Shown here piece by piece: positions 5,719 through 31,331 of a stretch of 60,111 nucleotides of DNA. How positions within the stretch are numbered: position 1 is the stretch's first letter; every line of letters begins with the position of its first letter. Origin of the DNA: Methylocystis silviterrae (GTDB lineage: Bacteria; Pseudomonadota; Alphaproteobacteria; Rhizobiales; Beijerinckiaceae); contig NZ_JABVWW010000016.1 in assembly GCF_013350005.1 (NCBI RefSeq), positions 1 through 60,111 on the forward strand, read 5' to 3'. A program made the translations under genes and the position numbers. Under the pieces are notes generated by a model. It was not told the origin of the DNA, did not search any database, and worked only from the letters and a program-made list of their open reading frames with translations.

Positions 5719-5744
5719 TTCGATGCAGGAGGCGAATAGGTTAC
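5719..5744 (-). promoter_or_regulatory. SigF-like ECF promoter motif (site 1)
   Basis: Minus strand: GTAAC, 17 bases, CGAA. It points into the remnant at 5712-5530. One of nine copies of this motif in the island. Confidence 0.55.
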
Positions 5745-5818
5745 GGCAGGTCCACTGTCGGGCAGTCAAACTGCCGGCGATTGAATTTTTTTGAAAAGGG
5801 GAGCGGTTTATCGCTCAT
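5741..5818 (-). CDS. Possible 25-aa ORF downstream of SigF-like site 2
   Basis: ATG at 5818 to TAA at 5741 encodes a very short basic peptide (MSDKPLPFSKKFNRRQFDCP and five more residues). It follows the minus-strand SigF-like motif at 5865-5890 by 47 bases. It may be a real small product or the stub of a lost gene; nothing else supports it. Confidence 0.2.
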   Translation of the reverse strand: MSDKPLPFSKKFNRRQFDCPTVDLP

Positions 5819-5864
5819 TTGAGTCTTCGGCCGTTCGACGCTGTTCACACGATACGAATTTATT

Positions 5865-5890
5865 TTCGCTGTAAAGCGCCGCGAGGTTAC
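5865..5890 (-). promoter_or_regulatory. SigF-like ECF promoter motif (site 2)
   Basis: Minus strand: GTAAC (5890-5886), 17 bases, CGAA (5868-5865). It is preceded by T, so the -35 reads TGTAACC. It faces the decayed region at 5.35-5.82 kb. Confidence 0.55.
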
Positions 5891-6016
5891 ATCCGAGGCG
5901 CGGGTAGTTGCGCGGAGCGCCAAACGCGCGTCCCTGGCGGGTCTCGACGCATAGCTCGCGCGTCTCTGTCGCTACAGTGTTGATGAACGGCCCGAAGGCG
6001 TCATGCTACAGCAATC

Positions 6017-6931: not shown

Positions 6932-6983
6932 CTACGAGCTGGCGCCCGATTAATTGCATGCAACTCCAAGGGATACATTCTCT

Positions 6984-7009
6984 GTAACTTTAGGCGCGCT
7001 CCGCGCGAA
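6984..7009 (+). promoter_or_regulatory. SigF-like ECF promoter motif of the bufferin operon (site 3)
   Basis: TGTAACTTT with GTAAC at 6984-6988, a 17-base spacer and CGAA at 7006-7009. It lies 73 bases before the bufA start. Confidence 0.7.
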
Positions 7010-7081
7010 ACATGTTTCGTGAGGCTCGTGAGGGGTCCTCACCGCTGTTCGCCAATTGAGCGAACCAATAGGGAGATTGAC

Positions 7082-7342
7082 ATGAAGGTCAGTATCGTTT
7101 CGGGCTCGACTCTCGCCGCCGCGGCGATTGCGCTGGCGCTTAGCGGCGCGGCCTCGACGCCAGCTGCCGCGAAAAAGGGCATGAAATCCGTTCATTGCAT
7201 GGGCCTCAACGCCTGCAAGGGCCAGGGCGCCTGTCAGACAGCGAGTAGCGGTTGCAAGGGCCAAAACGCGTGCAAAGGCCAGGGCTGGCTCCCTGCAAAA
7301 TCGAAGGGCGCCTGCGAGGCGCAGGGCGGCACTGTCGGCTAA
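7082..7342 (+). CDS. bufA2: Bufferin precursor, BufA2-type small Cys-rich secreted peptide
   Basis: 86 residues: a signal peptide (about 1-30, ending near TPAAAKK) and a mature part with six Cys in the repeating pattern HCMGLNACKGQGAC ... CKGQNACKGQGW ... GACEAQGG. The pattern matches BufA2-type bufferins, ribosomal peptides whose Cys are converted by the BufB/BufC enzymes into thiooxazoles that bind copper (established for the family). The ATG at 7082 follows GGGAGA by 7 bases; a longer frame upstream would run through the promoter motif. bufB and bufC follow directly. Expected to be exported and to chelate copper in the periplasm. Confidence 0.85.
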   Translation: MKVSIVSGSTLAAAAIALALSGAASTPAAAKKGMKSVHCMGLNACKGQGACQTASSGCKGQNACKGQGWLPAKSKGACEAQGGTVG

Positions 7343-7356
7343 CGGATCAGGATAAT

Positions 7357-7417: not shown

Positions 7418-8263
7418 ATGAGCAAGCCTTTGTCATTGGGTTTTGGTCTCGGGCTGCGGCCAGTCTATTACCGAGAGCTTCTCGAAAGCCGGCCGAATGT
7501 GGACTGGCTAGAGATCATCACGGAAAATTATCTTGTTCCGGGAGGACGGCCGGTCGCCATGCTCGAACGCATGCGAGCCGACTATCCCATTGTCATGCAT
7601 GGCGTGTCGATGTCTCTGGCGTCCACCGATCCCCTCGATATCGATTATCTCAAGGCCCTCAAGAAACTCGCTGATCGTATCGAGCCACGTTGGATTTCCG
7701 ATCATCTCTGCTGGACGGGCGTCCATGGCGTGAACATGCACGATCTACTTCCCGTTCCGTATACTTTCGAGGCGTTGCAACACGTTGTCGACCGGATAAA
7801 CCGCGTGCAGGATTTTCTCGGACGAAGGATCGCGATCGAGAACGCGTCCACCTACGTGACGTTCCATGAATCCGAAATGGATGAATGGACCTTTGTCCGA
7901 GAGATGGCGGAGCGCGCCGACTGCTGGCTGCTTGTCGACGTCAACAATATTTACGTCTCTGCGTTCAATCATGGCTTCGATGAGCGCCAATTCGTCGAGG
8001 CAATTCCAGCAGAGCGTGTGGCGCAACTACACCTCGCGGGCCATTCGGACGCTGGAACGCATAAGATCGACACGCATGATCAGCCGATTTGCGCTGACGT
8101 GTGGAAGCTTTACGAACGGGTGTGCCGCCAATTCGGCGAGGTCTCGACGATGATCGAGCGCGACGACAACTTTCCGCCATTCCATGAACTGGTCGCCGAA
8201 CTCGACCGTGCAAGGTCGATATACGCCGCCGTCGTCCACTCACGAGAGGAGACGGCTGCATGA
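7418..8263 (+). CDS. bufB: BufB: multinuclear non-heme iron oxidative enzyme (MNIO, DUF692)
   Basis: 281 residues, the normal length of the DUF692/UPF0276 TIM-barrel family. It starts GFGLGLRPVYYREL. It carries the metal-binding pattern of the family: HGVSMSL (near residue 65), DHLCWTG (100), ENAS (140), DVNNIYVSAFNHG (180) and HLAGHSD (210), with His/Glu/Asp ligands for the iron cluster. It modifies Cys of the BufA peptide with BufC as partner. The ATG at 7418 is chosen over an upstream TTG because the domain starts here. It overlaps bufC by ATGA, indicating translational coupling. Confidence 0.92.
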   Translation: MSKPLSLGFGLGLRPVYYRELLESRPNVDWLEIITENYLVPGGRPVAMLERMRADYPIVMHGVSMSLASTDPLDIDYLKALKKLADRIEPRWISDHLCWTGVHGVNMHDLLPVPYTFEALQHVVDRINRVQDFLGRRIAIENASTYVTFHESEMDEWTFVREMAERADCWLLVDVNNIYVSAFNHGFDERQFVEAIPAERVAQLHLAGHSDAGTHKIDTHDQPICADVWKLYERVCRQFGEVSTMIERDDNFPPFHELVAELDRARSIYAAVVHSREETAA

Positions 8264-9039
8264 CGCTCGCCGAGCTGCAAGAAAGATTTCAGGCCGGGAT
8301 ATTGAGCGAAGAAGCGATCGCGCCGCGTTTCGTCGCGGATTCGAAAAAGACGAACGCGGAGACGCTTTTTGCCGTCTACCATAATGCTTACCGACTTCGC
8401 CTCGCGGAGTTTCTCTCGAACGACTATCCGGTTCTAAGAAATTATCTTGAAGACGAAGATTTCGGGTCTCTTGTCGAGGCGTATATTTTAGCGGCGCCGT
8501 CGCGCGTTCGAAATGCGCGTTGGTACGGTGCGCGTCTTCCCGAATTTATGGGAACATATGCGCGTTTGGAAAATGACGCACAAGCGATCGACCTCGCGCG
8601 CTTCGAGCGTGCGCTCGCTGACGTGTTTGACGCCGCTGACGAGTCAAGGCTCTCTATTGACGCTCTTGCGAACATAGACGTGGAACGCTGGCCCAAGATT
8701 TCCTTCAAATTTCACCCCAGTTACGAACTCTTGGATCTCGCGATCGGAACGGCGACGCTATATGAGGCGGTGCGTGACGGGCAGGAGCTGCCACTCATCG
8801 ATGAGGGGGAAGAGCGCGTCCTGTTTTGGCGTAGCAGCGATCATCAGTCGTGTTATCGTCTCGTTTCGCCCGACGAGCGGCTTGCCCTGATTGAAGCTTC
8901 GGCGGGAAAGTCGTTTGCCGAGATCTGTTCGCTTCTGCAATTCCAGGGGTCCGGCGAGAACGTCGCTGCCCGAGCCGGGGAGTTCCTCACGCAGTGGTTC
9001 GCGGCAGGGATCATATCCTGTCTGGCGCTCGATGACTGA
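8260..9039 (+). CDS. bufC: BufC: DUF2063-type partner protein of BufB
   Basis: 259 residues. The N-terminal DUF2063 domain (TLAELQERFQAGIL, then YHNAYRLRLAEFLSNDYPVL around residues 40-59) is followed by a C-terminal winged-helix-like domain (SFAEICSLL). DUF2063 proteins form the heterodimer that recruits the precursor peptide to the MNIO enzyme. The overlap with bufB (ATGA) fits a fixed stoichiometry. Ends 7 bases before the next gene. Confidence 0.88.
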   Translation: MTLAELQERFQAGILSEEAIAPRFVADSKKTNAETLFAVYHNAYRLRLAEFLSNDYPVLRNYLEDEDFGSLVEAYILAAPSRVRNARWYGARLPEFMGTYARLENDAQAIDLARFERALADVFDAADESRLSIDALANIDVERWPKISFKFHPSYELLDLAIGTATLYEAVRDGQELPLIDEGEERVLFWRSSDHQSCYRLVSPDERLALIEASAGKSFAEICSLLQFQGSGENVAARAGEFLTQWFAAGIISCLALDD

Positions 9040-9866: not shown

Positions 9867-10694
9867 TTAGCGTGTCGGCCAATGCTTCGAATCATGATCT
9901 GACTCCAGATAAAATTCGCGGTGCTGGCTCCACTTCTTGATCATGGCGCGGGTCGCGAGCGCGGGAGCAGCGTGCAGATCACCAGAACGCCCATTCGCAC
10001 CAGCTCCAGAACCTCCGAAGCTTGGCGGCACGCCTGCGATTTCTTCGAGCAGGCGCGAAAAGTCGGCTGCGACATCGACATCGTACCACATCGGAAGCTC
10101 GACGGTTGGGATATCCAATTCCCGCGCGCGGTCGCGCGTCACTCGCGCGACCTCATTCGTGCTCCAGGGGATGTCTCGAAACAGCTCCCAGTGAGCATGC
10201 TTGAGTCCGATCAAGTAATATCCGCCATCGAATGCCGGTCCGAGAACGACGCAATCTTCATGGCGCCGGAGCGCATCCGACGCCATCGCTAGAATCTGCG
10301 GAGGAAGCGTCGGACTGTCAGAGTTAATGAGCATCGCGCCGCCGCGATGGCGTTCGAGGAGACTGGCGATTGCGCCATGGACGATTGACGAGAAGTCATC
10401 GCCGTGTTGCGGAACGAGACGAAATGAGCGGGGAAGCAACGCCGCGATCTCGGCGGCGGCGTCGATCGGGGCGTAAAGCCCATAGCCCTGCAAGCTGTGG
10501 CTTGATTGGAGGGTCTCGATAATTTTCGCAACGTCGCGCAGGAAGCATTCAGAAAGCAAGGCTGCGAAATCCGCGCCGATCGTGCGACCCAGGCGAGTTT
10601 TCGCGTGACCGGGACGCGGCGCTTTACACATAAGCCCAACGGCGATCGCCTCAGCTTGGGGCCGGGACGATATCGGCGGGATCCCCTGAGGCAT
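9867..10694 (-). CDS. TIGR04282-type arsenosugar-associated sugar transferase, copy 1
   Basis: 275 residues with the DUF2064/TIGR04282 nucleotidyl-sugar transferase-like fold. It has the N-terminal MCKAPRPGHAKTRLGRTIG (P-loop-like, near residues 22-40), the acceptor motif INSDSPTLP (about 144-152), GPAFDGGYYLIGLK (about 178) and PWSTNEV. The family is named for its place in arsenosugar clusters. Its members resemble MobA/GT-A enzymes but their exact substrate is not settled. The C-terminal 45 residues are an extension absent from copy 2 (28,443). Transcribed divergently from the rhodanese operon, from a SigF-like site at 10,726-10,751. Confidence 0.85.
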   Translation of the reverse strand: MPQGIPPISSRPQAEAIAVGLMCKAPRPGHAKTRLGRTIGADFAALLSECFLRDVAKIIETLQSSHSLQGYGLYAPIDAAAEIAALLPRSFRLVPQHGDDFSSIVHGAIASLLERHRGGAMLINSDSPTLPPQILAMASDALRRHEDCVVLGPAFDGGYYLIGLKHAHWELFRDIPWSTNEVARVTRDRARELDIPTVELPMWYDVDVAADFSRLLEEIAGVPPSFGGSGAGANGRSGDLHAAPALATRAMIKKWSQHREFYLESDHDSKHWPTR

Positions 10695-10725: not shown

Positions 10726-10751
10726 TTCGCATTGGAGCACCCCGAAGTTAC
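10726..10751 (-). promoter_or_regulatory. SigF-like ECF promoter motif for the TIGR04282-type gene (site 4)
   Basis: Minus strand GTAAC (10751-10747), 17 bases, CGAA (10729-10726), 32 bases before the start codon at 10694. It is back-to-back with site 5. Confidence 0.7.
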
Positions 10752-10795: not shown

Positions 10796-10820
10796 GTAAC
10801 TTTTCGCTTAGCGGCTCGAA
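10796..10820 (+). promoter_or_regulatory. SigF-like ECF promoter motif for the rhodanese-glycosyltransferase operon (site 5)
   Basis: TGTAACTTT with GTAAC at 10796-10800, a 16-base spacer and CGAA at 10817-10820, 33 bases before the start codon at 10854. Confidence 0.7.
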
Positions 10821-10853: not shown

Positions 10854-11459
10854 ATGGCGTCAAAGCAGGCAATCCAACGTAGGGGGCGGCTCTGGAAATC
10901 CTCTAATTTCCTCTGGGCTCTTACGCTTGTCGGAGTAGTCAGCGGCGTTACCTTTGTTGAACTTCGCCCTGTATCGATCCCAAATCCTGCATCGAAGAAC
11001 GTCGCTTTGGCGGACGTAGAGCGCGCCGTCGCAGCAAAGTACAATGTTCCCAACATCGTAAGCGCTGAAGCATCTCGACTAATCGCGTCCGGGGACGCCG
11101 TTCTATTTGATGTTCGCGAGAGTCGCGAATTCGACGCGGGACACTTGCCGGGCGCGGTCCATGTTGATCCCGCCGAATCGGCAGATCGTTTCCTCGCCGA
11201 ACATGCAGCGGAGCTGCGCGGGCGCGTCGTGATCTTTTATTGCTCCGTTGGCGTGCGCAGCTCAATCATGGTGGAGCGCATCGCGCAGGCGGCCGCAGCG
11301 CATGAACCCCTCGCGCTTTACAATCTCCGAGGAGGGATTTTCCGCTGGTTCAGCGAAGGGCGGCCTGTCGTCGATTTGATCGGGTCCGTCAATCGAATAC
11401 ACCCGTACGACGAGTCATGGGGCGGATTGCTTCAGCGCGCCATGAAGGCGCGCGGTTGA
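10854..11459 (+). CDS. Membrane-anchored rhodanese-like sulfurtransferase
   Basis: 201 residues. One N-terminal membrane helix (about 19-35) is followed by a single rhodanese domain: LFDVRESREFDAGHLPGAVH (84-103) and an active-site loop FYCSVGVRSS with the catalytic Cys at 130. The domain would lie in the periplasm. Rhodaneses move persulfide sulfur or act in arsenate/thiol chemistry; the substrate is unknown here. The stop overlaps the next start (TGATG), so the two genes are translationally coupled. Confidence 0.82.
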   Translation: MASKQAIQRRGRLWKSSNFLWALTLVGVVSGVTFVELRPVSIPNPASKNVALADVERAVAAKYNVPNIVSAEASRLIASGDAVLFDVRESREFDAGHLPGAVHVDPAESADRFLAEHAAELRGRVVIFYCSVGVRSSIMVERIAQAAAAHEPLALYNLRGGIFRWFSEGRPVVDLIGSVNRIHPYDESWGGLLQRAMKARG

Positions 11460-12844
11460 TGAGCATTTGGGTAGGCGCTCTGCTGGCGGCAAGCCAGATT
11501 GCGCTCGTCGTCCTGAGCCCTGGATTGACTCATGCGGCGGTGAGGGATTTCGCCGGCGTCGCGCCGCTCGTCGGGCTTCTGTCGGCGTCGGCGGCGGTCG
11601 GGCTCGTTTATATGCATAGTATACGGGCGATATCCGCGAGGCTGAGTCGTGCGTCGCCTATTTGGCCGATGGTTGGACTTGGCCTCGCCATGAGGCTCGT
11701 CTGGTTCGCGACGGCGCCGCCGCTCGAAGACGACTTTTACCGCTATCTTTGGGACGGAGCCGCCGTCGCCTCGGGTCGCAGCCCCTACGCGCTTTCGCCG
11801 GCACAGGCGGCGACAGGTCAGAACGGGATACCGCCCTTCGACCTGCTGGCCGAGACGGGGCGCTCGACGCTCAAACGCATCAATTTCCCGGAATATACCT
11901 CGATCTATCCTGGCGCCGCGCAACTCGCCTTTGGCGCCGCGCACCTTGTCGCGCCCTGGAGCGTCGACGGCCTTCGGCTCGTTTTTGCAATCGCCGACGT
12001 TGCGACGCTCGGCGTCATGTTCCGGCTTCTGGACGAACTGAACCGACCGCGCATGCTGGCGGCGCTTTACTGGTGCAATCCTCTCGTTGTTTTTGCGGGC
12101 GCCGCGACCGTTCATGTCGATCTTCTGCTTGGCCCGCTGGTTCTCGGCGCGATGTTCGCCGCCTATCGCATGAGGTCCATTGCGTGCTCGGCGTTGCTAG
12201 CGCTGGCGGTCGGCGTCAAGATATGGCCTATACTTCTCGCGCCTCTCATCGCGCGCGCGCATCTCGACGGGCGGCGCTATCCAGTCATCGCCATTTTTGT
12301 CTTCGGGATTGCCGCGGCAATTCTGCTGGCGCCGCTATTCGCTGCTTCCTTCACGGATCGCTCAGGTCTCGCGGCCTATGCAGCGCACTGGCAAATCAAC
12401 AATGCGCCCTTTACATGGCTGTGCGGGCTGTTCGACTGCGTCAGCGGCGACGATTCTCGCTGGACGGCAAAAACCTTGCGTTATCTTTCTGGCGTCTCCG
12501 CCGCGGCCGTCGCTGTAATCATCGCTATGCGTCCGATCGAGGATTTGCGTGACCTTCTCGGCCGCGCGCTCATCGTCGCCGCAACGGTTTTCTATCTGTC
12601 CCCGGCGCAATTCCCCTGGTATGCGCTGTGGTTCCTACCGCTCGCAGCCGCTGTACAGTGCTGGCCGCTGCTTCTGGCTTCCGTGACGCTTCCTGTATAT
12701 TATCTGTTCTTTCCGATGGCGGCCATGGGCGAGCGCGCGCTGTTTCAGAACGGGGTCGCAATTTTGCACGCGGCGCCGGTCTGGGCTTGGCTTCTGTGGC
12801 GCCGAATTCATGACCAAAAGACGCACTGCGCGAGCCGTGCATGA
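11459..12844 (+). CDS. Polytopic membrane glycosyltransferase (GT-C type)
   Basis: 461 residues with about 10-12 hydrophobic segments. An early acidic loop motif PLEDDFYRYLWDGAAVASGR (near residue 82) is typical of GT-C enzymes that use polyprenyl-phosphate sugars (DUF2029/mannosyltransferase-like). The ATG at 11459 overlaps the rhodanese stop; a start 42 bases upstream is open but lies inside that gene. It overlaps the following GT2 gene by ATGA. With the GT2 enzyme making a lipid-linked sugar, it could transfer that sugar to a membrane acceptor; this pairing is inference. Confidence 0.78.
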   Translation: MSIWVGALLAASQIALVVLSPGLTHAAVRDFAGVAPLVGLLSASAAVGLVYMHSIRAISARLSRASPIWPMVGLGLAMRLVWFATAPPLEDDFYRYLWDGAAVASGRSPYALSPAQAATGQNGIPPFDLLAETGRSTLKRINFPEYTSIYPGAAQLAFGAAHLVAPWSVDGLRLVFAIADVATLGVMFRLLDELNRPRMLAALYWCNPLVVFAGAATVHVDLLLGPLVLGAMFAAYRMRSIACSALLALAVGVKIWPILLAPLIARAHLDGRRYPVIAIFVFGIAAAILLAPLFAASFTDRSGLAAYAAHWQINNAPFTWLCGLFDCVSGDDSRWTAKTLRYLSGVSAAAVAVIIAMRPIEDLRDLLGRALIVAATVFYLSPAQFPWYALWFLPLAAAVQCWPLLLASVTLPVYYLFFPMAAMGERALFQNGVAILHAAPVWAWLLWRRIHDQKTHCASRA

Positions 12845-13548
12845 AAAACGCCGTTGCGCCGGGCGATCTCTCCATCGGGGTCGTCATTCCAGTGAAGAAC
12901 GAAGCCGCCGCTTTGCCGGTGGTGTTGTCTGCGATTCCGGATTGGGTGAAGATCGTCGTCGTCGCCGATGGCCAGTCGAGTGATGGTTCGGGCAAGATTG
13001 CAAGAGATCTGGGTGCGGTCGTCGTCACGGAGCCGCGCCACGGCTATGGACGCGCATGTCTGACCGCGCTCTCGGTCATGCCATCCATGGATGTGATCGT
13101 TTTCATGGACGGCGATGCGAGCGACGATCCGGCAGACATGTCGACGCTCGTCGCGCCTATCGCCGATGGCGCTGCCGATCTTGTCCTTGGATCACGAACG
13201 CTGGGAAAACGGGAAGCAGGCGCACTGACGCCGCAGCAATTATTTGGAAATTGGCTTGCCTGCCTGCTGATGAGGTGGATCTGGGGCGCGCGTTATACAG
13301 ATCTCGGACCCTTCCGCGCCATAAGGCGCGACGCCCTCAGGCGACTGGCGCTGACCGACGCGAATTACGGTTGGACGGTGGAGATGCAGGCGCGCGCGGC
13401 GAAACATGGCTTGTGCACGCTCGAAGTTCCGGTTCGCTACCGAAGACGCATCGGGGCGTCAAAGGTTTCGGGCACGCTTAGGGGCGCCATCGGCGCCGGC
13501 GTCAAGATCCTCTACGTCATCGGCCGGGAGGCCCTTCGGCAAGGCTGA
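12841..13548 (+). CDS. Family 2 glycosyltransferase (dolichol-phosphate-mannose-synthase-like)
   Basis: 235 residues, GT-A fold. GVVIPVKNEAAALPVVLSAI opens the nucleotide-binding part (14-33). VFMDGDASDDPADM (about 90-103) holds the DxD metal site. GSRTLGKREAGALTPQQ and the GWTVEMQARAAKHGLC segment match DPM-synthase-like enzymes. It lacks the C-terminal membrane helices of some relatives. Overlaps the upstream GT-C gene. Likely loads a sugar on a polyprenyl phosphate for that gene. Converges with pstB, leaving a 31-base gap. Confidence 0.85.
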   Translation: MKNAVAPGDLSIGVVIPVKNEAAALPVVLSAIPDWVKIVVVADGQSSDGSGKIARDLGAVVVTEPRHGYGRACLTALSVMPSMDVIVFMDGDASDDPADMSTLVAPIADGAADLVLGSRTLGKREAGALTPQQLFGNWLACLLMRWIWGARYTDLGPFRAIRRDALRRLALTDANYGWTVEMQARAAKHGLCTLEVPVRYRRRIGASKVSGTLRGAIGAGVKILYVIGREALRQG

Positions 13549-13579: not shown

Positions 13580-14443
13580 TCAACCCCTTCGCCCGCTAAC
13601 ATAAGCCGCCGTCAGTTCATGGCGTGGCGAGTCAAAAATTCGCTGGCAATGATCAAATTCGATCAGCACGCCGGCGCGATCCTTCACCCAGAAGAAGCCG
13701 GCATAATTGGCGACGCGGCGCGCCTGGGCCAGATTGTGAGTGGCGATGACAATCGTGTAGCCGCCTCGCAGGCTCGCGATCAGATCTTCAACGATTGTCG
13801 ACGAAACGGGATCGAGCGCGCTGCACGGCTCGTCCATCAGCAGGACGTCCGGCTGCAGCGCGATGGCGCGGGCGATACACAGACGCTGTTGTTGTCCGCC
13901 GGACAGCGCGAGCGCGGGAGCGTCGAGCCGATCTCTGACCTCCTCCCAAAGGCCGACGTCGACGAGCGACCGCCACACGGCCGCATCGAGATCGGCGCGG
14001 CGCTGAACGCCATGCTCCTTCAGCGGCATCTCAAGATTGCGTCGGATGGAGAGCGGAAATGGATTGGGCCGTTGGAAGATCATTCCCACGCGACGCCGCA
14101 GCGCCCGGACATTGGTGAGCTGATCATGAATATTCTGGCCATCGAAAAGAATTCGCCCTTCGACTTCGCATCCCGGAATGAGATCGCTCAGCCGGTTGAG
14201 GCTCGACAGGAAACTCGTCTTTCCGCAGCCTGACGGACCAATCAGCGCTGTGACGCAACCGCGGAAGATATCGAGGCTCACCTCCTTGAGGGCCGCGCGT
14301 CCATCATACGCCAGCGTCAGATTCTCGACGCTAATCTGTGGCCTCGGCTCGCAGCAGGTAGGCCCGGCCGCCAGCGGGCCGAGGGTATAGGCGGCGCGGC
14401 CGGAGCCGGCTGTTGCGTCTGTGTCTGCAATATACGCGATCAT
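13580..14443 (-). CDS. pstB: Phosphate (arsenate) ABC transporter ATPase PstB
   Basis: 287 residues from the ATG at 14443, which overlaps the pstA stop (ATGA). ABC ATPase with GPSGCGKTS (Walker A), ALSGGQQQRLCIARAIAL (signature) and VLLMDEPCSALDPVS (Walker B and D-loop). The Q-loop region IFQRPNPFPLSI is the PstB hallmark. It energises uptake through PstC/PstA. It is the last gene of the arsM-pstSCAB unit; no phoU follows. An upstream in-frame start at 14485 would lie inside pstA. Confidence 0.92.
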   Translation of the reverse strand: MIAYIADTDATAGSGRAAYTLGPLAAGPTCCEPRPQISVENLTLAYDGRAALKEVSLDIFRGCVTALIGPSGCGKTSFLSSLNRLSDLIPGCEVEGRILFDGQNIHDQLTNVRALRRRVGMIFQRPNPFPLSIRRNLEMPLKEHGVQRRADLDAAVWRSLVDVGLWEEVRDRLDAPALALSGGQQQRLCIARAIALQPDVLLMDEPCSALDPVSSTIVEDLIASLRGGYTIVIATHNLAQARRVANYAGFFWVKDRAGVLIEFDHCQRIFDSPRHELTAAYVSGRRG

Positions 14444-19408: not shown

Positions 19409-19804
19409 TTAATTGCTTGAGCGCAGGATTTTCTTTTCAATCGAGCTTGAGGCGGGCTCCGGACTGGCCTCAGGTTGTTTTCGCTGTATGTGCGTTTGGC
19501 CCCACTGGTACAGCTCCCGCAGCAATGGCTCCAGTGTCCTGCCGAGATCGGACAGGGAGTATTCGACCTTGGGCGGCACCTCGGCGAAAACCTTACGCAG
19601 AATCATGCCGTCGGCTTCGAGTTCGCGTAGCTGGAGGGTCAGCATTCTCTGCGTAACATTTGGCATCAGCCTGCGAAGTTCATTGAAGCGTCTTGTGCCG
19701 TCGAGAAGGCGAAACAGGATCGTCGCCTTCCATTTGCTTCCCATCACGTCCAGGGCGGCTTCGAGCGGGCAGCATGTGTAGGCCTGATGTCGCTGTTTCC
19801 TCAT
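19409..19804 (-). CDS. HxlR-family transcriptional regulator
   Basis: 131 residues with the HxlR winged-helix domain: CPLEAALDVMGSKWKATILF near 13-32, then RRFNELRRLMPNVTQRMLTL and VPPKVEYSLSDLGRTLEPLL. The N-terminal CC (residues 12-13) is the position of the redox- or electrophile-sensing Cys in many HxlR proteins. Divergent from a tautomerase-AhpD unit, which it probably controls through the dyad at 19,831-19,850. ATG 19804 is used. Confidence 0.88.
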   Translation of the reverse strand: MRKQRHQAYTCCPLEAALDVMGSKWKATILFRLLDGTRRFNELRRLMPNVTQRMLTLQLRELEADGMILRKVFAEVPPKVEYSLSDLGRTLEPLLRELYQWGQTHIQRKQPEASPEPASSSIEKKILRSSN

Positions 19805-22837: not shown

Positions 22838-22993
22838 CTAGAATCTTGCCAGGATCGGTGGTGGGGGCGCAAACAGATTGAAGTGATAATTCACGCCCGC
22901 GCGGACGGTGTGAAATCGTGTTTCCTCGCGATTGCCGGCAAAAAATGCGTTTCCGCCGTTGTTGCGCAGATTGGTGTAGAGAGGCTGCTTCAT
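22838..22993 (-). pseudogene. C-terminal remnant of an outer-membrane beta-barrel protein
   Basis: 51 codons ending FHTVRAGVNYHFNLFAPPPP plus five residues. The last-strand pattern RAGxNYHF is typical of the C-terminus of alphaproteobacterial opacity/Omp25-type barrels. The rest of the gene is absent. The SigF-like site 6 lies 116 bases upstream, so the intact gene may have belonged to the same regulon. Confidence 0.5.
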
Positions 22994-23515
22994 CTTGCCG
23001 TTCCTTCGCACTGGTTTTGATCTGGAGCTCGCGGCCTTATTGCATCGACTGCATTTGCGCGCCGGTCACGAAGTGACTTTAGCGGCGAACGCTTTCCATG
23101 TTTCCCAGTTCGCAAGGTCGAAGAGGAAAGTTACACGTGGACGAATTCATTGATGCGAGAACGGCGGCAAATGGAACATGTCCTACAAATACCGCGACGC
23201 ATGTCGTCAAACGGAAAAATCAAAACGAAGCGCTAGCGTAAGCGATGTCTCATGCGAAGGCGATCAGCGATGCAAGGCCAGGGCTTTCGTCATTGCCGGT
23301 TCAAGGCCTGTCTTGGAAGACAATGAACCGACGCGCTACGACGCTTCACGCGGATTGCTTTTCGACGACGCATCAGCTGCGGCGACTCGTTACGCGGCGA
23401 AGCGCTCGCCGCTCCACCTGTTCAGAAGAAATTGCACAATTGGAACGCGGGGCCGCGTGCTGCCGCTCTCGTTAAGAATGGATCAAAAGCTCTCGACCAT
23501 GCGCTACGATGGCGC
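22994..23515. other. Non-coding stretch with one SigF-like site
   Basis: Apart from the promoter motif at 23,109-23,134 I see no convincing gene. Open frames on the plus strand have unnatural, Arg/Ser-rich composition. Confidence 0.35.
23109..23134 (-). promoter_or_regulatory. SigF-like ECF promoter motif (site 6)
   Basis: Minus strand TGTAACTTT with GTAAC at 23134-23130, 17 bases, CGAA at 23112-23109. It faces the barrel-protein remnant and, further on, DUF547 and DUF3047. Confidence 0.6.
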
Positions 23516-23599
23516 TCAACCGACGGCGATGAGCGTGACGACAAGGATGACGACAGCAGCCGCAGCGTAGATCGAAAGAGCAGCCGTGATGGCGTTCAT
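23516..23599 (-). CDS. Tiny single-span membrane protein (27 aa)
   Basis: MNAITAALSIYAAAAVVILV followed by a few residues: almost the whole product is one hydrophobic helix. The ATG at 23599 has an AGGAGG site at ideal spacing, which is why I accept it despite its size. No homologue recognised. Could be a membrane regulatory peptide. Confidence 0.4.
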   Translation of the reverse strand: MNAITAALSIYAAAAVVILVVTLIAVG

Positions 23600-23861
23600 G
23601 AGCGTCCTCCTGTCTTGCGCGGCGAAACGGGCGCTTAGATCTCGCGCTTCGAAGCGTTGGCCGCATTCGACAATGGAATCTTCGAACGAACTGTCTGAAA
23701 GCTACAAACGCCGTGGAAGCGTCGCAATTGCGATGCGCGCGATCGGCGAACATTCAGTGTTCAGCAATTCCGTCACGGAATTGGGCGCGTGCGAGCCTCC
23801 GTCGTTCGAATCGCGATCATGGCGCGCGCAGTGACTCATGAGCGTCGAGCGACGGCGTGGA

Positions 23862-25166: not shown

Positions 25167-26590
25167 CCGAAAAGTCCCAGAAAGCGCACGAGTTTGCGCG
25201 TGCGCGGAGAAAAGAGCGTGGGCGTGTAGTAGCTCCCAGCGGCCCGCTTGGAGATTTCGCTTAGCGTCGGATAGGGTGCGATGAGATTGGCGATGGCGCC
25301 GATGTTCAGGCCTTGAGAGATCGCTAACGTCCAGGGCGCGATCAATTCGCCGGCCTTCTGGCCGACCATCGTCGCGCCGAGCACCCGCCCGCGCTTGGTC
25401 GTAAGGACTTTGAGAAAACCGCGAGTCGTCCCCTCGGCGCGCGCGCGGTCGTTGTCTCGAAATTCGGCGCGCAGCACTTGCGCGCCGTCGCCATAGTGGT
25501 CCCGCGCCTGTTCTTCGTTGAGACCGACCTGAGCGAGTTCGGGGTCGGTATAAGTGACCCATGGAAAGGGCGATGGCTTGCTTTTCGCTGGCAACCGGAA
25601 AAGCGCATTACGAATGATGATGCCGGCGTGATAGTTCGCCATATGCGTGAATTGAAGTCCGCCAATCACATCTCCGGCGGCGAAAATGCGTTTGTTCGTC
25701 GTGCGCAGGCGCGCATCAACCTCGACGCCCTTTCCGGAGAAGCGCACGCCGGCCGCCTCTAAGCCAAGATTTTCGATATTTGGCTTGCGGCCCGCAGCAA
25801 GAAGCAGATGCGAGCCATCGAGGCGTTTCTCTCCAGCCTCCGTCTCAATCACGAGCGCGACGCCGTGATTTCCGTTCTCTACCCGTGCGATTGTTGTGTT
25901 TTCCAGTATGTCGACGCCCTCTTCGGCGAGCGTCTCGCGCACGACGGCGACCGCGTCCGGATCATCTTTGGGCAAGATGGGACCAATATCGAGCAAGGTG
26001 ACTTTCGCGCCGAGGCGCCGATGCGCCTGCGCCATTTCACAGCCGATCGGCCCGGCGCCAACGATGAGCAAATGGTTCGGTAGGACCGAATTCTCGAAGA
26101 TCGACTCGTTCGTGAAATAAGGAACGTCTTCGATTCCCGGAATGTCGGGGATCGCGGCGCGGCTTCCTGTCGCGAGCACGAAGCGCCGCGCGCGGATGAT
26201 CTTGCCGCCGGCTTCGATCGTTCGTTCATCTATAAACCCGGCGCGCGCCTGGATTACCGTACAGCCTAACCCAACAAAGCGCTCAACCGAGTCGTGCGGC
26301 GCGATCGATGCAATCACGTCATGCACATAGGCGTTGACAGCCGCGAAATCGACGCGGGGCTCGCCGCCATGAACGCCGAAGCGCGTCGCTCGCGAAACCG
26401 CATTCGCGGCCTTGGCGGCCGCGAGAAGCGATTTCGACGGCACGCAGCCTGTATTCAGGCAATCTCCGCCCATGCGGTTTGCCTCGATAAGAATCGTCTG
26501 GGCGCCCATCTGCGCCGCGCCCGCGGCGACGGAGAGACCGGCGGAGCCGGCGCCGATAATGCAAATGTCGCACGTGATTTGTTCGCTCAC
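25163..26590 (-). CDS. MerA/LpdA-like FAD-dependent disulfide oxidoreductase
   Basis: 475 residues. FAD-binding GAGSAG (13-18), redox pair GDCLNTGCVPSK (C44, C49), an NAD(P)-binding GAGPIGCEMAQ domain, GRKPNIENLGL and a dimerisation domain with YPTLSEISKRAAGSYYTPTL. The C-terminus ends LVRFLGLFG, without the vicinal Cys pair of true mercuric reductase and without the HxxxxE-type LpdA ending. It is therefore the 'mercuric reductase-like' group often placed with TVP38 genes. The start is a GTG at 26590 that overlaps the upstream stop. Substrate unknown; an organo-arsenical or disulfide is possible. Confidence 0.85.
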   Translation of the reverse strand: MSEQITCDICIIGAGSAGLSVAAGAAQMGAQTILIEANRMGGDCLNTGCVPSKSLLAAAKAANAVSRATRFGVHGGEPRVDFAAVNAYVHDVIASIAPHDSVERFVGLGCTVIQARAGFIDERTIEAGGKIIRARRFVLATGSRAAIPDIPGIEDVPYFTNESIFENSVLPNHLLIVGAGPIGCEMAQAHRRLGAKVTLLDIGPILPKDDPDAVAVVRETLAEEGVDILENTTIARVENGNHGVALVIETEAGEKRLDGSHLLLAAGRKPNIENLGLEAAGVRFSGKGVEVDARLRTTNKRIFAAGDVIGGLQFTHMANYHAGIIIRNALFRLPAKSKPSPFPWVTYTDPELAQVGLNEEQARDHYGDGAQVLRAEFRDNDRARAEGTTRGFLKVLTTKRGRVLGATMVGQKAGELIAPWTLAISQGLNIGAIANLIAPYPTLSEISKRAAGSYYTPTLFSPRTRKLVRFLGLFG

Positions 26591-27585
26591 GATCCATTGT
26601 CTCCCTTCGCGCTGCATGAAGCGCCGCCAAGAACGCAAAAACGCGAGCAGAAGACATGATTGAGACTGACCGGGCGAAATGACTCCGCGAGCGTCGTCCC
26701 CAACTCGAAACCAAGCGCGTCCGGCAAAAGCGTGCAGGACACAACAACAGGCCGCTCGGCTCCCTTGCGCTTGATCACCATCCGCGAAGTCGCGCACATC
26801 ATGTCCATGGGGGAGCGGCCCAATATGCTCCAGCAGCCTTCGCTGATCTCAGGCACATCTTCGCGCGCGTCCATTTCCGGGAAGAGGACCAATCGAGCGG
26901 CATCGTCTGCGTCGACGCCCAACCCCAGCCTGTCGAACAGCGCGCGAAATCCGCCTCGCGTCTCGGCCTCGGTCTCGTCCCATACGAGACGCGAAGCGAT
27001 GGTCAGATCAAAATTATTCCAAGCCAGCCAGCGAAGCCCGTCGATCGCAGGTTTCCAGCTGTTGGGTCCGCGAATTTTTTCATGGCCAGCCGTTTCGTAA
27101 TGGTCGAGCGATACGCGTATCGTCAATCTGCCAGGGAATCTCGCGCTGAGATCGAGCAGCTTCGCCTTCGCGCGCTGCATCGGTTTCATCCCATTCGTGA
27201 GGACAACAACCCGATGGCCAGCGTTGAGGCAATCTTCAAGCATTCCCAGCGCATCGGGGTTCATGAAGGGCTCGCCGCCGGTGAATCCGATTTCTAACGG
27301 TCCATCAGAGAGCCCCGTCGCTTCCATCAGGAAGGCCGCCGCCTCAGCGCGCGTCAGATAGGAAAGGCGGTCGTTGCGCGGCGAGGATTCGATATAGCAC
27401 CCCTCGCAGGCGAGATTGCAAAGCGTCCCTGTGTTGAACCACAAGGTTTCAAGACGGTGAAAGGGAACCGTCGCGCGGCGCTCACCCTTGGCCGTGAGGT
27501 CTGGATCAGTGAATTGGGCGGCAGCCCGGGAAAGGTCTGCGCGAACGCCTTCCCCATTCAAGACACTGACCGAAGGGACTCTCAT
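26587..27585 (-). CDS. Radical SAM protein with C-terminal Cys cluster, arsenosugar-cluster type
   Basis: 332 residues. The [4Fe-4S] motif is in NTGTLCNLACEGCYIESSPR (C56, C60, C63; CX3CX2C). GFTGGEPFMNP (SAM amino-group binding) lies near 100-110 and VVVLTNGMKP follows. The C-terminus has CATSRMVIKRKGAERP, SCTLLPDALGFELG and FCSRFCVLGGASC (C313, C317, C324), suggesting an auxiliary cluster of SPASM/twitch type. It is not ArsS, which has a different N-terminus and DUF3641 C-terminus. First gene of a four-gene operon (then flavoprotein, TVP38, AhpD-like), each with overlap or short gaps. Confidence 0.85.
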   Translation of the reverse strand: MRVPSVSVLNGEGVRADLSRAAAQFTDPDLTAKGERRATVPFHRLETLWFNTGTLCNLACEGCYIESSPRNDRLSYLTRAEAAAFLMEATGLSDGPLEIGFTGGEPFMNPDALGMLEDCLNAGHRVVVLTNGMKPMQRAKAKLLDLSARFPGRLTIRVSLDHYETAGHEKIRGPNSWKPAIDGLRWLAWNNFDLTIASRLVWDETEAETRGGFRALFDRLGLGVDADDAARLVLFPEMDAREDVPEISEGCWSILGRSPMDMMCATSRMVIKRKGAERPVVVSCTLLPDALGFELGTTLAESFRPVSLNHVFCSRFCVLGGASCSAKGDNGS

Positions 27586-27615: not shown

Positions 27616-27641
27616 TTCGAATCTGCGCTACAAAAGGTTTC
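27616..27641 (-). promoter_or_regulatory. SigF-like ECF promoter motif, one mismatch (site 7)
   Basis: Minus strand GAAACCTTTT (GTAAC with T to A; 27641-27637), 17 bases, CGAA (27619-27616), 30 bases before the radical SAM start codon. Back-to-back with site 8. Confidence 0.5.
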
Positions 27642-27726: not shown

Positions 27727-27751
27727 GTAACCTTTCCCGGGTCGCGACGAA
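27727..27751 (+). promoter_or_regulatory. SigF-like ECF promoter motif (site 8)
   Basis: GTAACCTTT with GTAAC at 27727-27731, 16 bases, CGAA at 27748-27751, 20 bases before the TIGR04283-type start. Confidence 0.7.
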
Positions 27752-27771: not shown

Positions 27772-28440
27772 ATGAGCCTATCGATTGTCATTCCGATCTT
27801 GAACGCTTCGCAAACGCTGCCAGGAGCGCTGGCGGCGCTGGCTGGCGTCGACGGCGAAGTTCTCGTCGTCGACGGCGGCTCGACCGATGCTAGCGCCAAG
27901 ATGGCGCACGACTGGGGCGCGCGGGTCATTGTCGCGCCGAGAGGACGCGGCCCGCAGTTAAGCGCCGGCGCCGAGCAAGCAGGGGGCGACTGGCTCTTGT
28001 TTCTTCACGCCGATACTTTGCTGGAGGAAGGCTGGCGGAAGGCCGTGACCCATTTTTGCAAGGACCCGGCAAATCGGACGAAGGCGGCGACCTTCCGCTT
28101 CGCTCTGGATGATCCATCACGGCAAGCGCGACGTCTGGAGCGAATGGTCGCCTGGCGCGTTAGGAGACTGGGCTTGCCCTATGGCGATCAGGGCCTGCTT
28201 ATTCATCGCGACCTTTATCGCGCTGTCGGCGGCTATAGGCCGCTGGAGCTGATGGAGGATGTCGACCTCGCGCGCCGGATCGGTCGGCGCCGCGTCGTAG
28301 CGCTTCCCGTAACGGCGCGCACCTCCGCCGCGCGGTGGCGCCGAGAGGGATGGCTGCGGCGTAGCGCTCGCAATCTTCTCTGCCTTTTGCTCTATTTTGC
28401 GCGTGTTCCGCCTCGGTTGATCAAACGTGTCTACGGCTGA
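27772..28440 (+). CDS. TIGR04283-type arsenosugar-associated glycosyltransferase
   Basis: 222 residues, GT2 fold. LSIVIPILNASQTLPGALAA opens the domain (2-21), VLVVDGGSTDASA (about 31-43) is the nucleotide site and FLHADTLLEEGW (about 77-88) holds the HAD metal-binding site typical of this subgroup. YGDQGLLIHRDLYRAVGGYR and LMEDVDLARRIGRR complete the TIGR04283 pattern. With the TIGR04282-type gene 2 bases downstream it forms the usual pair. Confidence 0.9.
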   Translation: MSLSIVIPILNASQTLPGALAALAGVDGEVLVVDGGSTDASAKMAHDWGARVIVAPRGRGPQLSAGAEQAGGDWLLFLHADTLLEEGWRKAVTHFCKDPANRTKAATFRFALDDPSRQARRLERMVAWRVRRLGLPYGDQGLLIHRDLYRAVGGYRPLELMEDVDLARRIGRRRVVALPVTARTSAARWRREGWLRRSARNLLCLLLYFARVPPRLIKRVYG

Positions 28441-28442
28441 CG

Positions 28443-29051
28443 ATGGGTCTTCGCGCGCATCTTGTCATTTTTACGCGCGCGCCCCGATACGGCGCCGGCA
28501 AGCGGCGCCTCGAGGCAGGCATAGGGCCTATGCAGGCGCTGAGGTTTCAGCGCGTTATGCTGACGCAAACACTTCGACGTTTCGGCGCCGATCCGCGCTG
28601 GACAACGTGGCTCGCGGTGACGCCCGATCGTTCTGGACCGTGGCCGCCTCGCTTCGACGTTTTGCCGCAGGGCAAAGGCGACCTCGGCGAGCGCATGGCG
28701 CGGGTCGCAAAGGCGTTGCCGGCGGGACCCGTACTCATCATGGGCTCCGATGTGCCGCGGGTCACGATTGCCGAAGTGGCGCGCGCTTTTCGGGTGTTGG
28801 GCAATCACGACGCGGTTTTTGGTCCTGCGGCGGACGGTGGCTATTGGGCCGTTGGCTTTCGCCGCCGACCCCACTTCGTTGATCCCTTCCGCGACGTGCG
28901 GTGGTCCACGGAACATGCGTTATCCGACAGTCTGGCGAATTTAGCCGGCGCTTCGGTCGCGATGCTCAATATGCACGAGGACGTCGACGACGCCGCGTCG
29001 CTCGCGCGTCTTTCCGGTTGGGAGTTTCTATACGGTCTCCGCCGCCGGTAA
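28443..29051 (+). CDS. TIGR04282-type arsenosugar-associated sugar transferase, copy 2
   Basis: 202 residues. IFTRAPRYGAGKRRLEAGIG (10-29) replaces the canonical KxPxPGxVKTRL box. MGSDVPRVTIAEVARAF, FGPAADGGYWAVGFRR and DVRWSTEHAL follow the family. It is shorter than copy 1 and diverges from it, so the two are paralogues with likely different roles, not a recent duplication. Starts 2 bases after the TIGR04283-type stop. Its last 24 bases overlap the convergent cyclase gene. Confidence 0.88.
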   Translation: MGLRAHLVIFTRAPRYGAGKRRLEAGIGPMQALRFQRVMLTQTLRRFGADPRWTTWLAVTPDRSGPWPPRFDVLPQGKGDLGERMARVAKALPAGPVLIMGSDVPRVTIAEVARAFRVLGNHDAVFGPAADGGYWAVGFRRRPHFVDPFRDVRWSTEHALSDSLANLAGASVAMLNMHEDVDDAASLARLSGWEFLYGLRRR

Positions 29052-30473
29052 CCGAGGTCCATTGGAGGAACGCCCCGCCTCTATTAGAACCGCGAGATCC
29101 ACTGGATAGTCGACGCCCGCAATTTCGCGCCCAAGACGATAACCCCACCTTTCGGTTGATGCGTAACCTTGGGACCGAGCAAGTTCAAACGTCGCCGAAT
29201 CGGTTATGGCCGTCACCCGCTCAATCTTGGAGTGCTTTTCGAGCCGGGCGCCGAAATTGACGGCGTCGCCGATAATCGTGTACTCGAGCCTTGTGCTGTC
29301 GCCAACCGCGCCAAACAAAACATCGCCCGTTGAGACCGCCAAGCCAAACGAGGGCGCCACTAAGCCGGCCTCGATGCGCGTAGCGCGCCACGCCTCAAGC
29401 TCCGACGCGATTGCATCGACAGCGCGGAGCGCGTCAGCGGCATAAGTTTCGTTTACGATCACAGCGCCAAAACTCGCGAGGATGCCGTCGCCGAGGAATT
29501 TGTCGATGAATCCTCCGCTACGCTGAACGAGCGGTATAACGCGTCTTTGATATTCGCCGAGCAGCTGCATTACCTCTCGAGGCGTCAGGCGGCGAGAAGT
29601 CCTTGTGAAATCGCGCAAGTCGATAACGAGGGCGGCAGCCGATCTCAGCTCCGCCTGACCGGCCTCGATCGGCGCCTCGGCGCGCGCGATTCTCTGCGCC
29701 AGGCCTCTTGCGACGAAGCGAGACAACTCGTTGGCAGCAGCATGATCGACGACGCAACGCAGAACAAGTTGCCGCGTTCTCCGCAACGCTAACGCCAGCA
29801 CCGCCGTAACCATGAGAATCGAGACAATCTTGTCAAATTCCGCGCCGAGCAGAATGCTCGACGAATTCATGTAATGGACATAGTCGTGAGTGACCGGAGG
29901 ATTATCCGATTGCGCCACGATGGCGTAGAGTAAGAGACCGCCCCAGCCGGCGGCGCTGACCGCTCCTGCGAGCAACACCCATCGCGCCTCGAAACTCAAT
30001 GTGCGCAAAGCTATAAAGATAAAGACATAAAGCAGCGTTGGCGCCTTCAAGTAAAAAGCTGGCGGCTGACCATATTGAAGATGAAAGCTCCAAATCAGCA
30101 ACATCAACACGCCTATATCGACGATGATCGAAAGCGCGACATGCCAATCCGCCAGTCGGTTTTGATAAATCAGGATGAGCCTGACGATGATGAACGCGCC
30201 ATAGGCCGCCAGCGTCCACGGAACGGACTCGAATGCTTGCGAGGGTAAAGCTCTTGGCGCGAGCGCATAGAGCGCGCTCCAAATCAGCAGCAATGCGCCT
30301 TGCGCCCAAGCGATAAGCAGTTCTCCCTGTTTATGTTCCTGCGCAATCACTCCTCTCAACCGTGACGGAATATGAGCCGGCGCCGGCTCGCCAAGCGGAG
30401 CCGCCGCTAACGAGCGCCAGAATTGCGAAATTGCGCGTCGGAACATCGTCGTTGTGTGAGCCAAGGAGTTCAT
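29028..30473 (-). CDS. Membrane adenylate/guanylate cyclase (class III)
   Basis: 481 residues from the ATG at 30473 (an alternative is 30530). An N-terminal half with about six membrane helices (roughly 45-250) is joined to a class III cyclase domain: SAAALVIDLRDFTRTSRRLT with the metal-binding Asp, GGFIDKFLGDGILASFGAV, and GDSTRLEYTIIGDAVNFGAR. Substrate- and metal-site residues look intact, so it should make a cyclic nucleotide in response to a membrane signal. It follows the 52-aa membrane protein and SigF-like site 9. Confidence 0.87.
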   Translation of the reverse strand: MNSLAHTTTMFRRAISQFWRSLAAAPLGEPAPAHIPSRLRGVIAQEHKQGELLIAWAQGALLLIWSALYALAPRALPSQAFESVPWTLAAYGAFIIVRLILIYQNRLADWHVALSIIVDIGVLMLLIWSFHLQYGQPPAFYLKAPTLLYVFIFIALRTLSFEARWVLLAGAVSAAGWGGLLLYAIVAQSDNPPVTHDYVHYMNSSSILLGAEFDKIVSILMVTAVLALALRRTRQLVLRCVVDHAAANELSRFVARGLAQRIARAEAPIEAGQAELRSAAALVIDLRDFTRTSRRLTPREVMQLLGEYQRRVIPLVQRSGGFIDKFLGDGILASFGAVIVNETYAADALRAVDAIASELEAWRATRIEAGLVAPSFGLAVSTGDVLFGAVGDSTRLEYTIIGDAVNFGARLEKHSKIERVTAITDSATFELARSQGYASTERWGYRLGREIAGVDYPVDLAVLIEAGRSSNGPRLPAAETV

Positions 30474-30560
30474 GGTGGGTGAGTGGCTTAATGTTCTTTC
30501 GGCCAGTTGTGGGCCTTTGCTTGCTCCCATGCAGTTCCAAGCGATTCCGTCAGGCTCGGC

Positions 30561-30719
30561 TCACTGGCAAATTGCGTAGCCAAGGCAGGGGTCGCTGGCG
30601 CCGGACCTGAGTGAATTGACGATTTTTGCGCTACCGCCTGCGACGCCAATGAAGAGCAGGAATGCGAGCAACGCGATTTGAACTGCCTTTTTCAGGTCGT
30701 CCTTCCTTATTGGCTCCAT
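30561..30719 (-). CDS. Small single-span membrane protein (52 aa)
   Basis: A charged start (MEPIRKDDLKKAVQ) is followed by one hydrophobic helix (IALLAFLLFIGVAGG) and an external tail with two Cys (SDPCLGYAICQ) able to form a disulfide or bind metal. Helix, tail and codon use look natural. It sits between SigF-like site 9 and the cyclase gene, 88 bases upstream of the latter. No family recognised. Confidence 0.6.
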   Translation of the reverse strand: MEPIRKDDLKKAVQIALLAFLLFIGVAGGSAKIVNSLRSGASDPCLGYAICQ

Positions 30720-31331
30720 CCTTGGCGGCATGAAACCCTTCTCGCGCTGTACCGTATTCGCTCGTCGGCGCGCCCCACAATTCCGCCTACGGACGTGAGT
30801 GCTCTGATCGTCAAGCAGGATCAGGACGCGACTGCGAATCCGCTACGAAGATACGCCAATAGGAAGGTCTAAAACATTCTTCGAAATAGGCCGGTTCTTG
30901 GTTACGGCGCTGACTGAAATTCTTTTCTGAAGAGATTTCGAAAACTTGAGGGTCGTCACCTCTATCGACGACATCGTCCTATCAGCCGCCGACCTTTAAT
31001 TCGCACTCGGATTGGCTGTTCAAGCCGTCACCGCCGCTCCTCAGAGTAACGTAACGCCCAATCAATTTAACGGTCCCTCTCATCCGCCCTCTACACGTGC
31101 GGGATCCCGAAATTGGCTGACAAAGCGTCGCCGAAATTGTACTTCGTCAAGCGCTGGGTCAGGCGCCCTTACGCGGTGAGGAGGATGTTGACATGATCTT
31201 CTCGACGCTCCTCTTGGTTTCAGTTCGATCGAGACCCAAGTCTCAAATGAAATGCCGTGAGTGGCGCCGAGCATTTCTGGTCTCGGATTGAACTGTCAAT
31301 CGACACGCCTCAAGGCCTCCTTGTGCCAGAC
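30720..31331. other. Intergenic stretch holding SigF-like site 9
   Basis: No convincing gene. The minus-strand motif at 30,880-30,905 is the only clear signal; a direct GTAAC-GTAAC repeat near 31,027 has no CGAA partner. Confidence 0.4.
30880..30905 (-). promoter_or_regulatory. SigF-like ECF promoter motif for the small-protein/cyclase unit (site 9)
   Basis: Minus strand GTAAC (30905-30901), 17 bases, CGAA (30883-30880), about 160 bases before the 52-aa gene. Confidence 0.6.

Follow-up and report, generated by a model that had tools for sequence, protein, structure and literature searches.

A SigF-type promoter motif and a putative NrsF-held regulon in a metal-stress-type island of Methylocystis silviterrae

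Gene content and SigF-type sites of the island

We analysed a contig of 60,111 bases (C7; hereafter the window, i.e., the whole stretch at its full length) from the genome of Methylocystis silviterrae, which totals 3.85 Mb in 64 contigs. Copies of the two-box motif GTAAC-N16/17-CGAA, called SigF-type sites in the following, are confined within the window to an island of metal-stress-type genes at 5.7-30.9 kb, which also encodes an extracytoplasmic function (ECF) sigma factor, SigF, and its putative anti-sigma factor, NrsF. C8 and C62 denote other contigs of the same genome, G013 is M. suflitae, and G023 and G025 are relatives. Genes were called with a simple open reading frame (ORF) caller, which misses short genes, e.g., the bufferin precursor at 7082-7342.

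An earlier note on this DNA had placed a sigF-nrsF pair at 18.1-19.4 kb, and the family profiles agree. The ECF16-type sigF (18787-19371, minus strand) encodes regions 2 and 4 only (PF04542, 41.0 bits; PF08281, 47.7 bits; both above cut-offs), i.e., it has ECF architecture. It overlaps by 4 bp with nrsF (18104-18790, minus strand), whose product reaches 89.2 bits against PF06532 (cut-off 26.8). Behind nrsF, and separated by no more than 45 bp each, lie arsM-like, pstS-like, pstC, pstA and pstB genes in this order (13580-18058, minus strand). A gene for an HxlR-family regulator (19409-19804, minus strand) has its 3' end 37 bp ahead of sigF.

Five of the intergenic sites lie closely ahead of a gene or operon. 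The site at 6984-7009 (plus strand) is 72 bp from the start of a bufferin operon, in which a Cys-rich precursor peptide of bufferin type (7082-7342, plus strand; read from the sequence, no Pfam match) is followed by an MNIO enzyme (7388/7418-8263, plus strand; PF05114, 373.9 bits) and a DUF2063 partner (8260-9039, plus strand; PF09836, 72.5 bits), that is, by the gene set of a bufferin cluster. The site at 10726-10751 (minus strand) is 31 bp from a TIGR04282 gene (9867-10694, minus strand), and the divergent one at 10796-10820 (plus strand) is 33 bp from a rhodanese gene (10854-11459, plus strand), with a gene at 11459-12844 and a GT2 gene at 12841-13548 behind it. A GAAAC variant at 27616-27641 (minus strand) precedes a radical SAM gene (26587-27585, minus strand; MerA-like, VTT and CMD genes next) by 30 bp, and the site at 27727-27751 (plus strand) precedes a TIGR04283 gene (27772-28440, plus strand; TIGR04282 gene 28443-29051 next) by 20 bp.

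The remaining sites have more distant, decayed or missing genes behind them. About 150 bp separate the one at 30880-30905 (minus strand) from a small ORF for a one-helix protein (30561-30731, minus strand; 52-56 aa by choice of start; present in C8 and G013 too), behind which lies a cyclase gene (29028-30350, minus strand). The site at 5719-5744 (minus strand) is 66 bp ahead of about 40 N-terminal codons (5530-5652) of a glutamate-synthase-like gene, the full version of which encodes 608 aa in G013. The site at 23109-23134 (minus strand) stands 115 bp ahead of what remains of an outer-membrane-protein gene (22838-22993, minus strand; DUF547 and DUF3047 genes next), and the one at 5865-5890 (minus strand) has no gene behind it. 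A GTAGC copy at 23681-23705 (minus strand), which reads exact GTAAC in G013, stands ahead of a one-helix ORF of 27 aa (23516-23599, minus strand).

All sites listed in the earlier note, i.e., eight exact intergenic ones and one GAAAC variant, were found at the stated positions; its intergenic hand scan missed two copies within coding sequence, i.e., a GAAAC site in sigF (19004-19029) and an exact one in hxlR (19653-19677). Its statement that the sites lie mostly 20-75 bases from gene starts holds for 10726, 10796, 27727, 27616 and 6984, and in distance also for 5719, the gene of which is a remnant; 23109, 30880 and 5865 do not fit. Three of its listed sites (5719, 5865, 23109) head missing or decayed genes.

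Both TIGR04282 genes pass the family cut-off of 134 with 147.3 and 136.1 bits, as does the TIGR04283 gene with 215.6 bits (cut-off 182), against which the GT2 protein scores 29.3. The radical SAM protein reaches 52.6 bits against ArsS (TIGR04167, cut-off 300); its best NCBIfam match is the Rv1681 family with 87.7 bits (cut-off 380). The ArsM-like protein stays below both ArsM cut-offs (NF038099, 75.8 of 400; NF008823, 153.2 of 263 bits). We therefore rejected arsenosugar synthesis as the function of the island, given the missed ArsS and ArsM cut-offs.

Most genes of the counterpart island in M. suflitae (G013:C52) show 92-99% protein identity. A search of the stretch 5900-30800 against plasmids gave no match. 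The right part of the window carries RND efflux genes (33.4-39.3 kb), a recombinase and Trb conjugation genes (ten proteins tested). The efflux unit consists of three genes (OEP, HlyD_D23, ACR_tran; 33445-39313, plus strand) and separates the island from the conjugation genes; our search of this region for exact SigF-type sites returned none.

Motif counts and controls

The window holds 9 exact motifs, while 100 dinucleotide shuffles give a mean of 0.43 and at most 2, in line with the excess over chance that the earlier note had estimated. The density of the remaining genome (18 in 3.74 Mb) predicts 0.29 per 60 kb (Poisson 3e-11). No exact site, coding or intergenic, occurs outside 5.7-30.9 kb of the window, and the claimed lack of intergenic copies in its conjugative part thus holds. 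Genome-wide counting yields 36 exact motifs, with 9 on C7, 9 on C8 and 18 in the remaining 3.74 Mb, i.e., the two contigs hold half of them and the excess is local. Among the 18 matches elsewhere, 13 were inspected: 7 are coding, 5 are intergenic, and the last one is C62:112755.

Spacing and box sequence are specific as well. Spacers of 16 and 17 account for 3 and 6 hits in the window, compared to 7 for the other 21 spacers (8-30) together, and these two alone are enriched in C7, C8, G013 and G025. When the letters of both boxes are permuted (720 permutations, C7 and C8), the true motif ranks first with 18 hits (mean 1.5, runner-up 12). We also built a matrix from 30 intergenic sites taken from five relatives and from C8, with C7 and G013:C52 excluded. 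Its top 11 hits in C7 (scores 24.3-17.8) are the eight exact intergenic sites, the hxlR and sigF sites, and the GAAAC site at 27616.

Chance, base composition or a repeat family could in principle produce such an excess, and the sites without an intact gene behind them (5865 heads none, 5719 and 23109 head decayed ones) would suit this explanation. Against it stand the above counts, the restriction to spacers 16/17, the orientation, the diverged spacer sequences described below and the match to mapped SigF promoters. Furthermore, 87 related loci (80 named and 7 others) contain 137 exact sites, 128 of which are outside called genes, and for 111 of these 128 a gene starts within 400 bp (median 69 bp). 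We thus regard a chance or repeat origin as highly improbable.

A second island and the conservation of its promoters

C8, a contig of 57.7 kb, carries a diverged second island with the same genes in reverse order (about 50-86% protein identity). Just two nrsF genes were found in the genome, one each on C7 and C8. The two SigF proteins share 145 of 173 aligned residues, and their helix-turn-helix stretch GKSVASLKVSVHR is identical.

For 7 of the 8 exact intergenic C7 sites, a partner is found at the matching C8 gene, i.e., ahead of bufferin, TIGR04282, rhodanese, outer-membrane protein, TIGR04283, small ORF/cyclase and a second bufferin operon. Within each pair the boxes do not differ, but beyond the first three bases 3/13 to 10/14 spacer positions agree (spacers of unequal length were compared starting at CGAA). 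The orphan site at 5865 corresponds to C8 position 43734, behind which lies a bufferin operon whose precursor is a DUF2282 protein. The eighth site (5719) probably pairs with C8 48546, behind which a remnant of the glutamate-synthase-like gene is likewise found. The GAAAC site at 27616 is retained as GAAACCTTT...CGAA in C8 and G013 and is therefore a conserved variant rather than an error. Mercury-resistance-like genes (MerT-, MerP-, MerA- and MerR-like, read from translations) are located beside the second island at C8:4565-9903.

The promoters are conserved across both islands and G013, and in part in Hyphomicrobium and Aminobacter. A Hyphomicrobium metagenome-assembled genome has an exact site 31 bp ahead of an operon of radical SAM, MerA-like, VTT, TIGR04282 and CMD genes, and a Hyphomicrobiaceae one has a site 227 bp ahead of a TIGR04282-like gene with a glycosyltransferase gene. 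In Aminobacter, the targets are a cyclase gene and a patatin/ADC/SDR operon. Many bufferin operons are among the motif targets beyond Methylocystis.

The relative G023 has a resident locus of bufferin precursor, nrsF, sigF and bufferin operon. At the corresponding locus of our genome (C62:112360-112780), the precursor, sigF and most of nrsF are lost, with NrsF residues 155-225 remaining at 90% identity; the bufferin operon and its SigF-type promoter are retained. With the resident pair deleted and its target promoter left in place, the island SigFs may now run this core operon.

Given two pairs, the island promoters might also be read mainly by the C8 SigF or another sigma factor, with the C7 pair being redundant. 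The shared helix-turn-helix points in this direction, as does the report that the sigF operon of Caulobacter is not solely SigF-dependent (PMC3511200, in the part available). However, each island keeps an intact-looking pair with the same linker site, and the G013 island of this type has a pair of its own; moreover, redundancy and cross-talk would be compatible with the regulon itself. Redundancy of the C7 pair is thus unlikely in our view. The claim that the pair at 18.1-19.4 kb rules the island operons is supported with the qualification that, given the second pair on C8, it probably does not act alone.

The site inside sigF

The GAAAC-N17-CGAA copy GAAACCTTT...CGAA at 19004-19029 (minus strand) lies on the sense strand of sigF within the codons of the sigma2-sigma4 linker, 213 bp from nrsF, and at the same codon in the C8 sigF. 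To follow it across relatives, we used the 80 named loci, which were found by SigF alignment (80 of 81 confirmed loci were kept). For codon tests, 83 sigF genes longer than 400 nt were used, i.e., 78 named loci (two shorter ones were dropped) plus C7, C8, G020, G172 and G410.

G(A/T)AAC-N16/17-CGAA occurs within sigF in 47 of the 80 loci, always with spacer 17. Among the 83 genes, 51 have the internal site, always in frame at the codon aligned with Glu115 of C7. Other spacers are found in 0-3 genes each, except for spacer 24 (15 genes), and the antisense strand gives 1. SigFs carrying the site are as little as 41% identical to that of C7. An NrsF ORF follows the internal site in 46 of the 47 loci and starts 176-228 bp away (median 213).

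One explanation is that the intergenic motifs are SigF promoters, while the sigF site only reflects a linker peptide, P-E-T-F...(A/T)-(K/N), that is kept for protein function. ECF sigma linkers can matter for promoter contacts, and P-E-T-F is conserved in the nearer relatives. The codon choice, however, is constrained beyond the residues. When the genes are recoded synonymously by local codon use, the site appears in a mean of 4.2 and a maximum of 10 genes (400 runs), compared to 28 of 49 real representatives (75% identity clusters). Within the 38 representatives that have no upstream sense site, 30/34 Glu/Val codons are GAA or GTA (12.2 expected) and 31/34 Ala/Thr/Pro/Ser codons are NCG (13.5 expected). 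For the same group, the five best codon-conserved of 178 columns are C7 residues 117, 115, 122, 114 and 116, which are exactly the motif codons, including the T before GAAAC. The 11 representatives with an upstream site show no motif codon among their ten best columns, ten being listed per group.

The residues themselves are not fixed. Four representatives (Afipia L152, L155 and L158; G410) have Val, encoded as GTA, in place of Glu, which creates a perfect GTAAC, as promoter DNA would predict; the motif Phe varies to Tyr, Leu, Ile or His. Fourfold sites elsewhere have diverged (30/75 identical between C7 and C8). We therefore consider a purely peptide-level origin rather unlikely, though somewhat less so than redundancy of the C7 pair.

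Regarding sigF as carrying a promoter, the intragenic site would drive nrsF-arsM-pst, such that SigF induces its own anti-sigma factor. Upstream of the C7 sigF, neither an exact sense site nor a top matrix hit is found. It seems likely that this arrangement is a property of a widespread alphaproteobacterial ECF16 branch, in which the linker-embedded promoter would transcribe only the anti-sigma gene and the genes behind it, i.e., a purely negative loop, to which an antisense site in the Methylocystis hxlR may add a second brake.

The antisense site in hxlR

The exact motif at 19653-19677 (plus strand) lies antisense within hxlR and points at tautomerase/CMD genes. Its boxes use the minority codons CTT and GTT (16% and 18% in C7), which are kept in the four distinct copies (C7, C8, G013, G020) while spacer codons change. 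This would suit a possible promoter of the tautomerase/CMD genes better than a pure coding coincidence, but four related copies are too few to decide.

Assignment to SigF and proposed mechanism

The motif closely resembles known targets of this sigma factor group; the papers cited here and below were available in part. In Caulobacter, SigF promoters whose starts were determined by primer extension and 5'RACE read GTAACC-N16-CGAA (PMC3511200), which agrees with the motif to which the earlier note had referred. The consensus of the ECF16 group is given as (T/C)GTAAC-N17-CGAA (PMC8315932), and for Sinorhizobium RpoE7 such a site is described ahead of a DUF692 operon (PMC6180224). The Caulobacter SigF regulon includes copper-induced DUF692 operons, and a sigF mutant is copper-sensitive (PMC8224329). 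Buf1 bufferin clusters are reported with sigma and NrsF genes (PMC12452194). The island has the corresponding parts, i.e., an ECF sigma gene, an nrsF gene behind it and GTAAC-N16/17-CGAA ahead of its target operons. Among 41 related genomes (our own included), the strict form TGTAACYTT-N13/14-CGAA is found in 16 of 20 with NrsF and in 1 of 21 without. The sites are seen directly to be locally enriched, specific in spacing and orientation, conserved and, within sigF, constrained at the codon level. On this basis, we hold it very probable that an ECF16-type SigF uses the motif as its promoter and that the island forms an NrsF-held regulon with built-in negative feedback.

Several observations weigh against this assignment or parts of it. 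The reversed pattern is commoner genome-wide than the motif (81 vs 36), so the excess is to be read as local to C7 and C8. Across 249 genomes of the order, the strict TGTAACYTT form gives 36 hits in 27 genomes, with only about ten near nrsF, and its reversed control is commoner. We thus rejected it as an order-wide NrsF marker; the YTT extension is therefore particular to this branch. Two sites, 30880 (18.4) and 27616 (17.8), score about as high as the best of 20 random sequences (17.9), such that their support comes from conservation and not from the score.

For the feedback part, 33 of the 80 loci have no site in sigF, 13 having neither an internal nor an upstream one, and the matrix gives no hit in the window ahead of the hxlR-sigF transcript. 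In the 1 kb preceding sigF, a sense GTAAC site is found in 0/45 loci with the internal site and in 20/32 without (Fisher 1.5e-10; 75% clusters, 0/26 vs 11/21, 2e-5; 65% clusters, 0/18 vs 7/17, 0.003), but on the tree this exclusivity falls into clusters (10 and 6 changes) and is therefore consistent with the promoter reading without being proof. As independent proof it was rejected, since starred branches provide one independent pair.

The island NrsF also deviates from known ones. When it is aligned to five NrsF proteins of high score (the one from Caulobacter is not among them), the first conserved cysteine is kept, while the second is replaced (FHQQ for HC). By position, the lost residue is C181 of the Caulobacter pair C131/C181 and C179 of OsrA, the latter being needed for the H2O2 response according to the accessible part of PMC3420878. 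The island protein has a CxxC in AFCSTCPGRP. Two cysteines are no condition of the Pfam family, and we file the C7 NrsF as a variant. With the second conserved cysteine absent, its sensing chemistry and signal may differ from the known ones.

Taking the sequence evidence together, we propose the following mechanism. NrsF would hold SigF until a signal frees it; candidates are copper, cadmium, chromate and oxidants, as in studied relatives. Freed SigF would bind the sites and transcribe the bufferin, TIGR04282, rhodanese, TIGR04283-TIGR04282, radical SAM and small-ORF/cyclase units. From the linker promoter, it would also transcribe nrsF and arsM-pst without full-length sigF, which would close a negative feedback. 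Since hxlR ends 37 bp before it, sigF is perhaps expressed from the hxlR promoter, and the antisense site may put a second brake on this hxlR-sigF transcript. The regulon would thus probably include nrsF-arsM-pst and perhaps the tautomerase operon, both via promoters in coding sequence.

Comparison with known systems

As a kind, the SigF-NrsF regulon is already known. Our literature search did not find an extension of it to radical SAM and TIGR04282/04283 genes, a pair of islands accompanied by loss of the resident regulator, or a promoter embedded in the codons of sigF. For a promoter inside a sigma gene that drives its anti-sigma factor, no fitting precedent was seen in titles and abstract openings. 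An rseA promoter within rpoE of Escherichia coli may be a precedent, which this search did not recover.

The predicted regulon is testable and offers a handle on TIGR04282/04283 genes, a radical SAM operon that is not ArsS and one-helix small proteins of unknown function; the same switch would tie such genes to copper-binding bufferins in methanotrophs. If functional, the sigF site would provide a conserved example of a sigma factor whose own coding sequence contains a promoter that it recognizes, i.e., one DNA stretch would serve as protein code and promoter, and the wiring would shift from self-activating to self-limiting. C62 documents a regulator replacement, with the resident sigF-nrsF gone and the target promoter left in the genome.

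With Caulobacter crescentus SigF-NrsF, the island shares the ECF sigma and NrsF genes in one operon, the GTAACC-N16-CGAA type of promoter and DUF692/MNIO targets (PMC3511200, PMC8224329). There, in the available portions of these papers, sigF has a mapped upstream promoter of this type and the regulon comprises eight genes under chromium. In the island, the site lies within the sigF gene, the second conserved cysteine of NrsF is missing, and TIGR04282/04283, rhodanese/glycosyltransferase, radical SAM and cyclase genes are added. Sinorhizobium RpoE7, Bradyrhizobium EcfF-OsrA and Brucella BcrS have the same promoter type and a DUF1109/NrsF anti-sigma factor, and RpoE7, like the island SigF as proposed, drives a DUF692-DUF2063 operon (PMC6180224). 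All three differ by a self-activating upstream promoter of the sigma gene (available text of PMC6180224, PMC3420878, PMC8315932), and the targets in Brucella and Bradyrhizobium are methionine-sulfoxide repair and stress genes.

Bufferin clusters share MNIO, DUF2063, a DUF2282 or Cys-rich precursor and DoxX, as well as, in Buf1, NrsF and sigma genes (PMC12452194, as far as available). The island is a larger multi-operon unit, and its C7 precursor is not a DUF2282 protein. With arsenosugar genes, it has in common two TIGR04282 genes and one TIGR04283 gene above the cut-offs and an ArsM-like gene; it differs in that its radical SAM protein misses the ArsS cut-off by far and its ArsM-like protein misses those of ArsM.

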